Shown in pieces: positions 11,667-44,640 of a stretch of DNA of 64,000 nucleotides. A model generated the notes under the pieces. It did no database searches, was not told where the DNA came from, and saw nothing but the letters and a program-made list of their open reading frames with translations. The DNA lies in assembly GCF_009731355.2 (NCBI RefSeq), contig NZ_AP022810.1:2508001-2572000 (forward strand), written 5' to 3'. Each line of letters opens with the position of its first letter. The stretch's first letter is position 1. Source of the DNA: Desulfuromonas sp. AOP6 (lineage in GTDB: Bacteria; Desulfobacterota; Desulfuromonadia; Desulfuromonadales; SZUA-540). The position numbers and the translations under genes are program-made.

Positions 11667-11744
11667 TTTTCCTTCTTCTCGCTGCTTTAGCAGGGGATGA
11701 AAGGCGGCCAGGGCCAGCATGGGAGGGGCCGTTTGAAAAGTGCA

Positions 11745-11834
11745 GACCGCTAGGGGAGTGGCACACTGAGAATCCCGCAACCAGGGATGACCCTTTGAAC
11801 CTGATCCGGTTCGTACCGGCGTAGGGAAGCGGCG
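11745..11834 (+). promoter_or_regulatory. TPP riboswitch (THI element)
   Basis: All hallmarks of the thiamine pyrophosphate aptamer are present in order: CTAGGGGAGTG at 11750-11760, the CTGAGA motif, a variable hairpin, GACCCTTTGAACCTGATC, and GTACCGGCGTAGGGAAGCGG at the 3' side. The ends pair as P1 (CCGC with GCGG). It lies directly upstream of a terminator and the thiED gene, so TPP binding most likely stops transcription of the operon. Confidence 0.95.
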
Positions 11835-11856
11835 AGAGGAACCGGTTGTTTTTCCG

Positions 11857-38847: not shown

Positions 38848-39096
38848 CCCCACTCCTGGCGAAAGTCTCCCCCGCAGGTCATTGCCGGCGGAGATCGCGG
38901 TTAAAGGCAGTCTGGACGGACAAAAAAGCTTGCATCTGTCCGTGAAAACCCGATTTAATTACAACGCCCCCTTGAAACTGTCAAGAAATTAGCGGAAAAA
39001 CGAGGGGGTAGCCAGGAATCTGCACCGCCCTTCCCCCCTGACCGGCCCGTGTCCGGCGTGGGCTATGGGGCAACCAACAGCTTGCGAGGAGGAACG

Positions 39097-39348
39097 ATGA
39101 AAGTCCGTAAAAAAATTCTGGATTACGAGTACGAAGAAGTCATCGACGTCAAACACCGCGAACTGATCCGGGTGGCCTGCGCCGTGGCCGTCGGCTGCCC
39201 CGACTGACTGAAGAAGCACTTCGCGGTCGCGAAGGAAGCAGGAGCCAGCGAGGCGGAACTCAAGGAGGCCATGGCCTACGGCATCATCGCGCCCTCAGGG
39301 CGGGCCAAAAACTTCACCCTGCGCATGCAGGAAGAACTCGAATTCTGA
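39097..39348 (+). CDS. AhpD-like selenoprotein (CxxU) with in-frame UGA
   Basis: An 83-residue reading frame interrupted by one TGA (39205-39207, codon 37), followed by coherent coding sequence to a normal TGA at 39346-39348. With Sec at 37 the redox motif is Cys34-Pro-Asp-Sec37, followed by Leu-Lys-Lys-His41 and AKEAGASEAELKEAMAYG, the CxxC-xxxH-xxA-xxxGAS-xxE layout of the AhpD/carboxymuconolactone decarboxylase redox core. A hairpin with a GGUC loop lies 11 bases past the UGA, as a bacterial SECIS should. GAGGAGG precedes the ATG. Selenocysteine-containing AhpD-like proteins are known in deltaproteobacteria. Role: thiol peroxidase or reductase-type activity is inferred. A plain stop-truncated pseudogene is the alternative, but conservation across the UGA argues against it. 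Confidence 0.82.
39205..39241 (+). promoter_or_regulatory. Putative bacterial SECIS element
   Basis: Begins with the UGA. A six-base-pair stem CTTCGC (39219-39224) with GCGAAG (39229-39234) closes a GGTC loop. A lower CTG/CAG pairing (39208-39210 with 39239-39241) is possible. Loop G-U and distance of about 18-20 bases from the UGA agree with SelB recognition rules known from fdhF. Confidence 0.65.
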
Positions 39349-39367: not shown

Positions 39368-40120
39368 TCACAGGCGGCCAAGCAGGCGCAGCAAACCGTC
39401 CAGCGCCGTGTAGGGGTGCGGCGGACAACCGGGGATATAGAGGTCGACGGGGAGCAGATCACCGAGGCCGTTGTGACACTCGGGACTGCCGCGGAAAGGG
39501 CCGCCGCCAATGGCACAGGCGCCGGAGGCGATGACCAGCTTCGGCTCGGGCACGGCGGCGTAGGTGTCGAGCAGGGCGCTCTTCATGTTTTCAGTGACCG
39601 GCCCGGTGACCAGAATGCCGTCGGCATGGCGCGGCGAGGCGACGAACTGGATGCCGAAACGGCCCAAGTCAAAGACCAGGGTGCCGAGCACGTTGAGGTC
39701 GGCTTCGCAGGCGTTGCAGCCGCCGGCGGAGACCTGGCGCAGCTTCAGAGAGCGCCCGAACAGTTTTTTCATGCGGGCGTCGAGGGCTTCCGCCAGCGGG
39801 TAAACGTCCCCATCGACCACCAGCCCTTCACGGCGGCGAGACGCCAGTCGATAATCGCGGCAGAAGGAGAGGCCGCCATGAGTGCAGGCCGTACAGTCGG
39901 CGCAGAAGAGGCAGAGCCCCATATCGACTGCTACTTTGCCCTCCTGCCGTTTCACGGCGCCATAGGGACAGCCACGCAGGCAGTCTTCACAGCCCGACGG
40001 GCAAAGTTCCGGCTGCAGGCGGGGCAGACCACGAAAACGCTCCGGCAGCACCGGCTCTTCCTTGGGATACTTGCCCGTTCGATAGCCCTGACGAAAGCGT
40101 TCGGCAATAATTTTCAGCAT
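39368..40120 (-). CDS. Ehr complex: fused HyfH-like ferredoxin and HyfI/NuoB-like small subunit
   Basis: A 250-residue fusion. Residues about 35-85 form a polyferredoxin part with Cys40, 44, 47, 51 (Cx3Cx2Cx3CP) and Cys70, 73, 76, 79. Residues about 115-250 match NuoB/HyfI, with Cys135 and Cys138 (GGCNACEAD), Cys in ASGACAIGG and Cys in PGCPPHP ligating the proximal [4Fe-4S] cluster. In E. coli hydrogenase 4 these are two genes, hyfH and hyfI. The subunit would pass electrons between an unknown soluble partner and the HyfG-like large subunit. ATG 40120 removes an unrelated upstream extension. Last gene of the operon; it faces the selenoprotein gene. Confidence 0.9.
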   Translation of the reverse strand: MLKIIAERFRQGYRTGKYPKEEPVLPERFRGLPRLQPELCPSGCEDCLRGCPYGAVKRQEGKVAVDMGLCLFCADCTACTHGGLSFCRDYRLASRRREGLVVDGDVYPLAEALDARMKKLFGRSLKLRQVSAGGCNACEADLNVLGTLVFDLGRFGIQFVASPRHADGILVTGPVTENMKSALLDTYAAVPEPKLVIASGACAIGGGPFRGSPECHNGLGDLLPVDLYIPGCPPHPYTALDGLLRLLGRL

Positions 40121-40140
40121 CGCTCGTTCTCCATCCCCAC

Positions 40141-41652
40141 TTACAGATCGAAGCCGCAGTAGGAAAGATTGAAACTCTTGTTGCACAAGGGAAAGTCGGA
40201 TATCTGCTCCTCGCGCAGGGCCATGGCCAGGCCGTTCCAGTTGCGGAAGGAGGGATCCACGACCTTGTAGCGCGAAAACCGGCCGGCGGCATCGGTCAGG
40301 GCCACATGCACGATTTCGCCGCGCCACCCCTCCGTCAGCGATACGGCCAGACTGTCCGCTGCCAGCGGGGCCATCTCCGCCCGCGCCGCGCCGTCCGGCA
40401 GCCGGCTGAGCCAGTAACGGATCTGCCTGAGGGAGTCGTAGATCTCCCGTCGGCGCACATGGGCCCTGGCGAAGACATCCCCACCCTCTTCCAGAACGAC
40501 GTGATCGAAGTCATCGACATAGGCACCGGCAGGATGATGGATACGGGAGTCGATGGCCAACCCGCAGGAGCGGGCCGCCATGCCCACGAGGCCGAGGGAC
40601 TCGGCGTCCTCGGTGGCGACCTTCCCCGTCCCCTCCAGTCGGGCCAGCGCCGAGGGACTATCGAAGAAGAGTTCGATCGCCCCGCGCGTATCGCGCGCGA
40701 TCACCGCCAGACGCTGCAAAAGATGGGCGACCAGCACCGGCTCCGCGTCGAATCCGACCCCGCCGGGACGGATCATCCCGCGCCCGAAGCGACTGCCGCA
40801 CAGTTCGGCGCTCAAGTTGAGATAGTCGCCGCGGATGCGGCCGCAGAAGCTCGCCGTCGGCAGAAAGCCTACATCCCCGGCGAGAGCGCCGATGTCGCCG
40901 ACATGGTTGGCCAGGCGCTCCAACTCCAGCGCCACCGCCCGCAGCACCTGCCCTCGCGGCGGCACCGGGCAGCCGCCCAACGCCTCCAGCACCTGGCAGT
41001 ACGCGGTGGCGTGGCCGATGGTGGTGTCCCCAGCCGCCGCCTCCAGCTGGTGCAGGGTACTGGCATGAGGGCCACCACGCAGAAGGGCTTCGAGTCCCCG
41101 ATGCTGAAAGCCGAGGGAGATCTCCAGATGCATGACCTTTTCGCCATGACACTGAAAGCGAAAATGCCCCGGCTCGATCACCCCGGCATGCACCGGCCCG
41201 ACGGCGACTTCGTGCACCTCTTCCCCTTCGACCCGGTAGAACTCCATATCCCCCGGCACGGGATGAGCGCTCCCCGCCCGCCCCCAGGCATCCCGTCCGG
41301 GCACCCAGGATGAATGGAAGCGCACCGGCTTGAACCAGGGGTGCCCTTCCGGCAGCACGCCGAACTGTTCGGCGAATTCCCGCTCAAAGAGGTGCAGCTG
41401 GGGAATTTCCGGAGTCAGGGAGGGGAAACGACTGCCGACCCGCGACCGTAGCAGATGCAGCTCCCCCTTCCAGTCGTGAGCCACCAGGGCAAAGAGTTCC
41501 ACCGCGCCGTCCGCCGCCAAACGCCCGAAGTAGGCCGACACCCTCCCCTGCTGTTCGAGATCGGCCTTCAACCGGGAGCCGAAAACCTCGTAGTCGAGAA
41601 CGGGGATCTCATTCAACTGTACAGTCCCGCCATTTTTCACGATGGGCATCAT
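40141..41652 (-). CDS. Ehr complex: HyfG-like (NuoC-NuoD fusion) large subunit without Ni-Fe site
   Basis: 503 residues. The first 150 are NuoC-like (QLHLFEREFAEQFGVLPEGHPWFKP) and the rest NuoD/hydrogenase large-subunit-like. Hydrogenases of this group use RxCGxC and DPCxxC to bind nickel. Aligning by eye to HycE, the first pair is Ala and Thr (AAAGDTTIGH) and the second is Ser and Asn (VVDPSFRNW), so all four ligands are gone. The tail DFPLCNKSFNLSY is typical of energy-converting-hydrogenase-related proteins. The subunit probably forms the quinone- or partner-facing cavity. Start ATG 41652 overlaps the hyfF-like stop (ATGA); a longer open frame upstream is antisense coding noise. Confidence 0.9.
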   Translation of the reverse strand: MMPIVKNGGTVQLNEIPVLDYEVFGSRLKADLEQQGRVSAYFGRLAADGAVELFALVAHDWKGELHLLRSRVGSRFPSLTPEIPQLHLFEREFAEQFGVLPEGHPWFKPVRFHSSWVPGRDAWGRAGSAHPVPGDMEFYRVEGEEVHEVAVGPVHAGVIEPGHFRFQCHGEKVMHLEISLGFQHRGLEALLRGGPHASTLHQLEAAAGDTTIGHATAYCQVLEALGGCPVPPRGQVLRAVALELERLANHVGDIGALAGDVGFLPTASFCGRIRGDYLNLSAELCGSRFGRGMIRPGGVGFDAEPVLVAHLLQRLAVIARDTRGAIELFFDSPSALARLEGTGKVATEDAESLGLVGMAARSCGLAIDSRIHHPAGAYVDDFDHVVLEEGGDVFARAHVRRREIYDSLRQIRYWLSRLPDGAARAEMAPLAADSLAVSLTEGWRGEIVHVALTDAAGRFSRYKVVDPSFRNWNGLAMALREEQISDFPLCNKSFNLSYCGFDL

Positions 41653-43073
41653 GCGTTCACCTCCAGCAGGGCGGCAGCGTCCCGCAGCAGGCGCTGCAGG
41701 GGTTCGGGCAGGTAGAGTCCCAGCACCAGCACGACCAGCAGCAGAAAGAGCGGCGGCGCCACCAGCGGCAGCCGGTCCCGGAAATGAACCTGCTCCACCT
41801 CCGCCTCCCCCTGAGTCACGGCCAGCACCGTGGCCCCCATACCGATAAAGATGACGGCCAGCAGCACCAGCACCGTAGCGCCGACCCACATCTGACCGCT
41901 GGCGAACATGCCGCGCAGCATGGTGAACTCGCTGAGAAAGGGGCCGAAGGGGGGCGAGCCGGTAATCGCCAGAAAGCCGGCCAGAAAGATGGCGCTGGAG
42001 ACGGGCAATACCGACAGCGCGCCCCGCACATCCTGCAGGCGCTTGCTGGCAAAGGCCCGATGAATATTGCCGGCACAGAGGAAGAGACAGCCCTTGGTCA
42101 TGGCATTGTTGACCAGATGCAGCAGGGCGCCGAAAGTGGCCAGGCCGCCGATACCGACCCCCACGGCCAGCAGCCCCATGTGCTCGACGCTCGAATAGGC
42201 GAGCAGACGTTTGATATCGCCCTGCCGGACAATGAAAATGGCCGCCAGCAGCAGGGAGAGCAGGCCCATGCCGAGCAGCATCTGCCGGGCCAGGGCCAGA
42301 TCGCCGGCCGCTCCCATTAACTGCACCCCGCGCAGGATGGCGAGAAAAGCCACAGAGGTCAGACCGCCGGCCAGCAGGGCGCCAACCAGACCAGGCGCCT
42401 CGCCGTAGGCATCGGGCTTCCAGCTGTGCAGAGGCGCCAGCCCCATCTTGGTGCCGAAGCCGACCAGCAGAAAGACGAAACCGGCATGCAGCCAAGGCTG
42501 GGCCAGATTCGGCCCCGCCGCCAGCAGGTCATCGAGCTGCAGACTGACCGGCACGCCGTTACCGAGAGCCGCATAGGCTACAAAGAGGATACCGACCATG
42601 GCCAGCGCGATGCCTACCGAGCAGAGAATGAGATATTTCCAGGTCGCTTCGATGGAAAGGCGGTTGCGATTGTAATAGATCAGTGGGGCGCTGGCGATGG
42701 TGGTCGTCTCCACCGCCACCCACAGCAGACCGAGATGGCGGGCCGCCACGGCCAGCGTCATGGCCGCGAGAAAGACCAGCAGGCAGGCGACCATCAGGCG
42801 GTTCCCCCGCTCCGCATGCAGGTTGAGGTATTCGACGGCGTAGATGGAACAGGCCAGGTAGAGCAGACTGGTCACCAGCAGGACAAGCTGGGAGAGGGCA
42901 TCGAGGCCGAGCCAGGGAGTCGGCAAAGAGGGAGCCTGACTGACCACGGTGACGGCCAGCGCGAAGTGAAGGACGCCACTGACCGGCAGCAGCCAGCTTC
43001 GCACCCGGAAAGAGGGTAGCGCCACGGCCAGGGCGGCCAAGGCCAGAGGAAAGAGAATCAGCAACATCAGCAT
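41649..43073 (-). CDS. Ehr complex: HyfF-like antiporter-type membrane subunit
   Basis: 474 residues, about 13-14 membrane segments. Proton-channel residues of MrpD/NuoM-type subunits are visible: Glu in LWVAVETTTIAS, Lys in GFGTKMGLAPLHSW and Lys in NNAMTKGCLFL. It resembles HyfF, the antiporter-like subunit at one end of hydrogenase-4-type complexes. Translationally coupled to the large subunit downstream and four bases after the hyfE-like stop. Whether protons or sodium move is not shown by the sequence. Confidence 0.9.
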   Translation of the reverse strand: MLMLLILFPLALAALAVALPSFRVRSWLLPVSGVLHFALAVTVVSQAPSLPTPWLGLDALSQLVLLVTSLLYLACSIYAVEYLNLHAERGNRLMVACLLVFLAAMTLAVAARHLGLLWVAVETTTIASAPLIYYNRNRLSIEATWKYLILCSVGIALAMVGILFVAYAALGNGVPVSLQLDDLLAAGPNLAQPWLHAGFVFLLVGFGTKMGLAPLHSWKPDAYGEAPGLVGALLAGGLTSVAFLAILRGVQLMGAAGDLALARQMLLGMGLLSLLLAAIFIVRQGDIKRLLAYSSVEHMGLLAVGVGIGGLATFGALLHLVNNAMTKGCLFLCAGNIHRAFASKRLQDVRGALSVLPVSSAIFLAGFLAITGSPPFGPFLSEFTMLRGMFASGQMWVGATVLVLLAVIFIGMGATVLAVTQGEAEVEQVHFRDRLPLVAPPLFLLLVVLVLGLYLPEPLQRLLRDAAALLEVNA

Positions 43074-43077
43074 CGTG

Positions 43078-43716
43078 TTATTCCTTCAAAACGGACAGTC
43101 GGGTGGTGTCCACGGTGGAGAACTCCCGGTTGATCTGGTTGATCACAATCCCCATAACAAAAACAGCGACGAGCAGATCGAGCAGCACCCCCGCTTCCAC
43201 GACCAGGGGCATCGCCTCGCTGAGCAGGATGCTGAAAATGAAGATACCGTTTTCCAGCATCAGATAGCCGAGCACCTGGGTGATGGCCTTGCGCCGCGTC
43301 ATCAGCAGCATAAACCCGGCAAAGAGGGTGGCCAGGGAGGTGGGGACGTAGAGTCCGCCCTGATGTTCCGGCAGCAGCGGCAGAAAATCAGCGAAGATGA
43401 AGGCCCCGGCCGTGAGCATCGCCCCGATGATCAGGGTGGGGACGAAACCGATAAGTGCCTCGACCTCGCGACGAATGCGTACCTCACGGATGGCCCGCAG
43501 CAGGAGCCAGGGAATGAACACCCCCTTGAGGATAAAAGCGGTGGCCGTCAGCATCAGGGTATGCCAGGAAATACCGTGGGCCAGGCACGGCAGCAGCGCA
43601 ATGAGGGCGCCTTGCAGGGCCACAACCCGGATGCAGGCCACCAGACGCGCGCTGCCCAGGGTGAAGAAGTTGATGAGAATCACCAGCAGCAGGCAGAGGT
43701 TGCTCAATTCAATCAT
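43078..43716 (-). CDS. Ehr complex: HyfE-like membrane subunit
   Basis: 212 residues, six or seven membrane segments. HyfE-like proteins combine NuoJ/NuoK-related features; the KAITQVLGYLMLENGIFIF segment (about 132-150) with Glu in a membrane helix is the NuoK-like core. Lies between the hyfC-like gene (12 bases) and the hyfF-like gene (4 bases), as in hydrogenase-4 operons. Confidence 0.88.
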   Translation of the reverse strand: MIELSNLCLLLVILINFFTLGSARLVACIRVVALQGALIALLPCLAHGISWHTLMLTATAFILKGVFIPWLLLRAIREVRIRREVEALIGFVPTLIIGAMLTAGAFIFADFLPLLPEHQGGLYVPTSLATLFAGFMLLMTRRKAITQVLGYLMLENGIFIFSILLSEAMPLVVEAGVLLDLLVAVFVMGIVINQINREFSTVDTTRLSVLKE

Positions 43717-43728
43717 GGGTCCTAACTC

Positions 43729-44640
43729 CTAACGAAGCACCAGCACCAGGGCAAATATGGAGATCAGCATGGTGCCGATGAGCACCTGGGGTACGCGCAC
43801 CAGGCGCAGGCGGGCCATGGTCGACTCCACCACGCCGATCAGCACGGCCAGCAGCAGCAGGCCACCGAGGTAGACGCCCCCGTCCAGCAGCGGGCTGCCC
43901 GTCTCAAAGGGCAAAGCCAAACGGACGACAAGAGAGCCCAGCACCATCAGTTTGAGGGCGGCGCCGTACAGGACCATGCCGAAAGCCGGGCCGCTGTGAT
44001 CAAGCACCATGACCTCGTGGATCATCGTCAGCTCAAGGTGGGTATTGGGGTCGTCGAAGGGAATGCGGGAATTCTCCACCAGCAGCACGACAAAGAGGCA
44101 GACGGTGATCAGCCCCAGCGAAGCCGACGCCACCGTCCAGGAGGAACCCAGGCCGGCCCCAAGCAAAGCCCCGAGGGAAAGGCCATCGGCCAGACGGGCG
44201 AGCACAATCAGGGAAAAGAGCAGGGTCGGTTCGGCGAGACAGGAAAAGGTCACCTCGCGCGCTGCCCCCATCCCCTCGAAACTCGAACCCGTATCCAGGG
44301 CCGCCGAGGCCACAAAAAAACGGGACAGCCCGAAGAGATAGACAAAGAGGATCAAATCTCCCTGGAAAGAGATGGGCGCGGGCAGGGCGCCGAAGGGGAG
44401 CAGAAGCGAGGCCAGAATCGGCACGGCCAGCCCGACCACCGGCCCGGCCAGAAAGACCCAGGTCGTCGTGTGGCTCAGGACGAACCCCTTGCGCCACAGG
44501 CGGGCCAGGTCATAGTAGGGTTGCAGCAGGGGTGCTCCCCGCCGGCCGGCGAACAGAGCCTTGGTGCGGTTGATCACCCCCTGCAGCAGAGGCGCAAACA
44601 GCAGCAGAAGCACCAGGTGGACCAGAACATTGACAAACAT
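43729..44640 (-). CDS. Ehr complex: HyfC/NuoH-like membrane subunit
   Basis: 303 residues, about eight membrane segments, homologous to NuoH, HycD and HyfC, the subunit that anchors the peripheral arm. Recognisable parts are AGRRGAPLLQPYYDLARLWRK near 31-51, and the loop NSRIPFDDPNTHLELTMIHE near 195-214, rich in acidic residues that line the entry cavity in complex I relatives. Ten bases separate it from the preceding antiporter-like gene. Confidence 0.92.
   Translation of the reverse strand: MFVNVLVHLVLLLLFAPLLQGVINRTKALFAGRRGAPLLQPYYDLARLWRKGFVLSHTTTWVFLAGPVVGLAVPILASLLLPFGALPAPISFQGDLILFVYLFGLSRFFVASAALDTGSSFEGMGAAREVTFSCLAEPTLLFSLIVLARLADGLSLGALLGAGLGSSWTVASASLGLITVCLFVVLLVENSRIPFDDPNTHLELTMIHEVMVLDHSGPAFGMVLYGAALKLMVLGSLVVRLALPFETGSPLLDGGVYLGGLLLLAVLIGVVESTMARLRLVRVPQVLIGTMLISIFALVLVLR

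Follow-up and report, generated by a model that had tools for sequence, protein, structure and literature searches.

A GSU3128-family AhpD-like gene of Desulfuromonas sp. AOP6 with a probable selenocysteine codon and an embedded SECIS hairpin

In Desulfuromonas sp. AOP6, a short gene for an AhpD-like protein contains an in-frame UGA, and the question raised by this locus is whether the codon marks a broken gene or is read as selenocysteine (Sec). The window, i.e. the whole stretch of DNA that was analysed, comprises 64,000 nucleotides of contig NZ_AP022810.1, and coordinates are those of the window unless another contig or locus is named.

Reading frame and family assignment

The frame started with ATG at 39097, contained a single internal UGA at codon 37 (in CPDU) and ended with TGA at 39346-39348, exactly as described in the first-pass annotation, which had reported an 83-codon frame with one UGA forming CPD-U. 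The good ribosome-binding site reported there was also recovered, and purine-rich sites were present at the matching position in relatives. The predicted 83-residue product is MKVRKKILDYEYEEVIDVKHRELIRVACAVAVGCPDULKKHFAVAKEAGASEAELKEAMAYGIIAPSGRAKNFTLRMQEELEF, and the features of the locus are listed below.

39087-39092, + strand: AGGAGG, ribosome-binding-like site 4 nt before the ATG (sequence)
39097-39348, + strand: predicted selenoprotein gene, AhpD-like, GSU3128 family (NF041047), 83 residues and a UGA stop (sequence, profile matches, homologue alignment)
39160-39162, + strand: Glu22 codon, at the AhpD Glu118 position (invariant in alignment A1; relay residues from PMC3141380)
39196-39198, + strand: Cys34 codon, at the AhpD Cys130 position (invariant, 53/53)
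39205-39207, + strand: UGA codon 37, probably read as Sec, at the AhpD Cys133 position (TGA, 53/53)
39217-39219, + strand: His41 codon, at the AhpD His137 position (invariant, 53/53)
39219-39234, + strand: SECIS hairpin, stem CUUCGC/GCGAAG, loop GGUC at 39225-39228 (folding, codon conservation, bSECIS rules)

The product was matched by NCBIfam NF041047 ("GSU3128 family (seleno)protein") with 160.4 bits against a cut-off of 110, residues 1-82 lying on positions 1-83 of the 84 in the profile, and by Pfam CMD (PF02627) with 48.5 bits (8.7e-13) against a gathering score of 23, which bears out the AhpD-like/CMD identity proposed earlier. The CxxU motif of NF041047, in which UGA takes the second redox position, was present as C34-P-D-U37. 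The score with TIGR00777 (AhpD proper) was 14.9 bits against a cut-off of 192, and the profile matches indicate an AhpD-like protein, not AhpD proper.

The family is not new. A Sec-containing "distant AhpD homolog" was described in Geobacter sulfurreducens and G. uraniumreducens by Zhang et al. 2006 (PMC1794560), the same family was given as CxxU with accession AAR36519.2 in a 2022 review (PMC9312934), and NF041047 was entered as "Distant AhpD homolog, CxxU" in a 2026 review (PMC13188914). AAR36519 is probably GSU3128 itself, and a literature search on the name GSU3128 found no paper in the collection that was searched. The window copy has the same CxxU, length and taxonomic home (Geobacter and relatives) as the NF041047 family, with no difference of substance, and is an orthologue from a different genus of that group. 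Standard gene callers had been expected to miss the gene or to call a pseudogene; a Sec-blind caller would indeed stop at codon 37, but the gene is less hidden than supposed, since a curated NCBI model exists.

Conservation on both sides of the UGA

Across 84,980 species genomes, 52 homologues with 66-86% identity were recovered. Upstream of the UGA they showed 79% amino-acid identity against 57% identity at third positions, and downstream the mean amino-acid identity was 88% against 56% at third positions. This is a protein-coding signature on either side of the UGA, and it indicates that the frame stays coding after it, where the invariant residues include His41, Gly49 and Asn72. The continued AhpD-like sequence noted at first pass is thus real, and its conservation in homologues, the lack of which was named there as a point that could overturn the selenoprotein reading, was strong in the 52 sequences.

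An ordinary Cys-type AhpD-like gene broken by a chance stop, either as a pseudogene or through a sequencing error, would need a change of just one base from TGC or TGT to TGA, and the behaviour of a Sec-blind gene caller, which ends the frame at codon 37, fits such a gene too. Against this, the equivalent codon was TGA in 52/52 independent species assemblies (53/53 with the window gene) and in all family members of the order, purifying selection persisted past the UGA, and the gene was restricted to genomes with selA but for one incomplete assembly. Pseudogene and sequencing error were rejected on this conservation and are highly improbable.

The suggestion that homologues might carry Cys at position 37 held for distant CMD relatives only; the family proper yielded no Cys form, either among the 52 species homologues or among the order members. 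When 395 genomes were sampled from the phylum, one UGA was present in each of the 16 members that exceeded the NF041047 cut-off, no Cys form scored above that cut-off, and CMD proteins lacking an in-frame stop were seen only at about 50 bits or below. Five distant AhpD-like relatives (65-71 bits, below the NF041047 cut-off) had an in-frame UGA too; in these the stem CUUCGC/GCGAAG was preserved, and the loop was GGGC, GGCC or GGCG.

Selenocysteine machinery and distribution

The host genome (one contig, 3.27 Mb, 100% complete) contained tRNA-Sec (77 bits), selA (620 bits), selB (395 bits) and selD (359 bits), and the three protein genes adjoined one another. The capacity of the organism to make selenocysteine, which had been inferred at first pass and made to depend on selB and selC, is supported by these genes. 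The selD gene (C1:2471810-2472736) had an in-frame UGA of its own (SARSAGU).

The possibility that UGA generally encodes an amino acid other than Sec in this organism was also considered. The window gene and several homologues used UGA as terminator, and the complete Sec machinery was present; a changed code was rejected because UGA stops in the same genes, and its probability is negligible. Sec decoding of codon 37 is strongly, though indirectly, supported by the comparative data.

Within the order, the gene was found in 28 of 58 genomes, always in the UGA form. Of these 28 genomes, 27 had selA and only G422, an assembly of 78% completeness, did not; the gene was absent from the five remaining selA-negative genomes of the order. 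One genome had a second family copy (G420:C112:13813-14040) with an in-frame TAG besides the TGA, which is perhaps a decayed paralogue.

All three CMD-domain matches of the host genome, i.e. the window gene, MduS and a YciW-related protein, had an in-frame UGA, each in a CxxU motif; the other two genes were located at C1:877942 and C1:829756. MduS (NF045649, 636 bits) and the YciW-related protein likewise have AhpD-type domains with CxxU through the in-frame UGA. MduS, unlike the window protein, has a methyltransferase domain and a second Sec, giving two UGAs, whereas the YciW-related protein is longer and reached 105 of 310 bits, which is below its family cut-off.

The SECIS hairpin

The hairpin CUUCGC-GGUC-GCGAAG started 11 nt past the UGA. 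The first-pass annotation was right about the hairpin and its GGUC loop, but had placed it directly after the UGA, from which it is separated by that gap. In single-sequence folding its z-score was 0.26, and when the peptide was recoded at random with synonymous codons, the same 6-bp stem arose in about 28% of cases, because the peptide H-F-A-V-A-K fixes several of its pairs. By itself, the hairpin is not improbable for this peptide.

The significance of the hairpin comes from its conservation. Synonymous observed/expected entropy was 0.15 for the six hairpin codons against a mean of 0.80 across blocks, the lowest of the gene, and the stem was unbroken in 51 of 53 sequences. The hairpin codons were thus near-frozen at synonymous sites, which the protein does not require, and this suggests selection on the RNA. 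All four published bSECIS constraints agreed with the window hairpin (4-nt loop GGUC, 6 bp, 17 nt, -8.7 kcal/mol). The fdhF element of Escherichia coli, confirmed in E. coli genomes, also folded with a GGUC loop, and its gap from UGA to upper stem was likewise 11 nt. The window copy carries a canonical SECIS. Rfam, run across the window and at low threshold around the gene, returned nothing relevant at the selenoprotein gene.

UGA decoding as Sec competes with termination in bacteria, and the stability of the mini-hairpin is modest at -8.7 kcal/mol. It could be imagined on these grounds that translation usually stops at the UGA to yield a 36-residue peptide that has its own function, and that Sec read-through depends on selenium supply. 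However, the UGA lies inside the conserved CMD core, with His41, Gly49 and Asn72 past it, so the truncated peptide would be without the active site, and a gene with two such products is very unlikely.

The locus very probably encodes a standalone 83-residue redox protein of AhpD/CMD fold, in which UGA codon 37 is selenocysteine and the SECIS is embedded in the coding sequence, and which is likely a selenol peroxidase or disulfide reductase. This selenoprotein reading, already put forward at first pass, is upheld by the Sec machinery, the UGA in 52/52 homologues, the constraint on both sides of it, the near-frozen hairpin codons and the NF041047 match. UGA codon 37 would be read by SelB-bound Sec-tRNA-Sec, with the hairpin within codons 41-46 acting as SECIS, and the UGA at position 84 would terminate translation.

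The hairpin varied among relatives outside the window. Six Trichlorobacter-type relatives (L056, L058, L064, L065, L070 and L073) had the loops CCUG or UCUG instead of GGUC, which lack the G that the published bSECIS rule places within the first two loop positions; the L070 and L064 genomes still have selB. In two further relatives (L059:1743-1758 and L061:1805-1820) the usual stem had two mismatches, and an alternative 6-bp hairpin with a canonical loop, CGCCUU-GGCA-AAGGCG, was found 3 nt downstream. It is possible, though doubtful, that the SECIS was remodelled within the family, by a loop swap in the Trichlorobacter-type relatives and an apparent shift of the hairpin by 3 nt in L059 and L061.

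Predicted fold and active site

The AlphaFold2 model of the window protein was mostly helical with a mean pLDDT of 88. Among solved structures, the best matches by sequence and by fold were CMD/AhpD-like proteins (3bey, 7y4r, 5dik and 1vke), the fold matches being modest, with a TM of about 0.6 and a best E of 0.007.

In AhpD of Mycobacterium tuberculosis the proton relay is composed of Glu118, Cys130, His132, Cys133 and His137 (PMC3141380), for which the counterparts by spacing were Glu22, Cys34, Asp36, Sec37 and His41. Four of the five relay positions were kept, Sec replacing Cys133, and the position of His132, reportedly not absolutely conserved in AhpD (PMC3141380), was Asp or Thr. As far as model and alignment go, an AhpD-like fold with the active-site residues is shown.

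M. tuberculosis AhpD (PDB 1gu9, 1knc) and PA0269 of Pseudomonas aeruginosa (2o4d) have the CMD core and the relay of Glu, CxxC and His, with which Glu22, Cys34, Sec37 and His41 are equally spaced. The window protein differs from both: Sec stands where they have the second Cys, and Asp or Thr where they have His132 or Tyr50. It is about half as long as M. tuberculosis AhpD, and showed no sign of coupling to AhpC.

Peroxidase or disulfide-reductase chemistry based on the selenol is supported by the retention of four relay positions and by Sec in the place of the second cysteine. The likeliest function is that of a small selenol peroxidase or disulfide reductase of the AhpD type, with a presumed substrate and electron donor. 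Glu22, Cys34, Sec37 and His41 would form the AhpD-like proton relay; Sec37, presumably the attacking residue, would attack a peroxide or a disulfide, then make a Se-S bond with Cys34, and would be reduced anew, probably by a cellular thiol donor.

Genomic context

No conserved neighbour or operon partner was found across the group. In the window the gene was flanked on the opposite strand by chorismate synthase and by a cluster resembling complex I or a membrane hydrogenase (39368-44640, - strand), which is convergent with the selenoprotein gene, and most relatives were without these flanks. Six relatives within the Geobacteraceae had a transporter-like gene directly 3' on the same strand, which was MatE by Pfam in the two that were tested. 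In addition, a TPP riboswitch (73 bits) was located at 11742-11844 (+ strand) of the window.

Significance

With this gene, a selenoprotein family that has been known since 2006 gains a well-supported orthologue, and the picture of selenocysteine decoding stays unchanged. The only mildly new point is the SECIS loop change in the Trichlorobacter-type relatives, outside the window; if true, SelB recognition in that lineage would be relaxed or altered. In its home group, the GSU3128 family seems to exist solely as the selenocysteine form.
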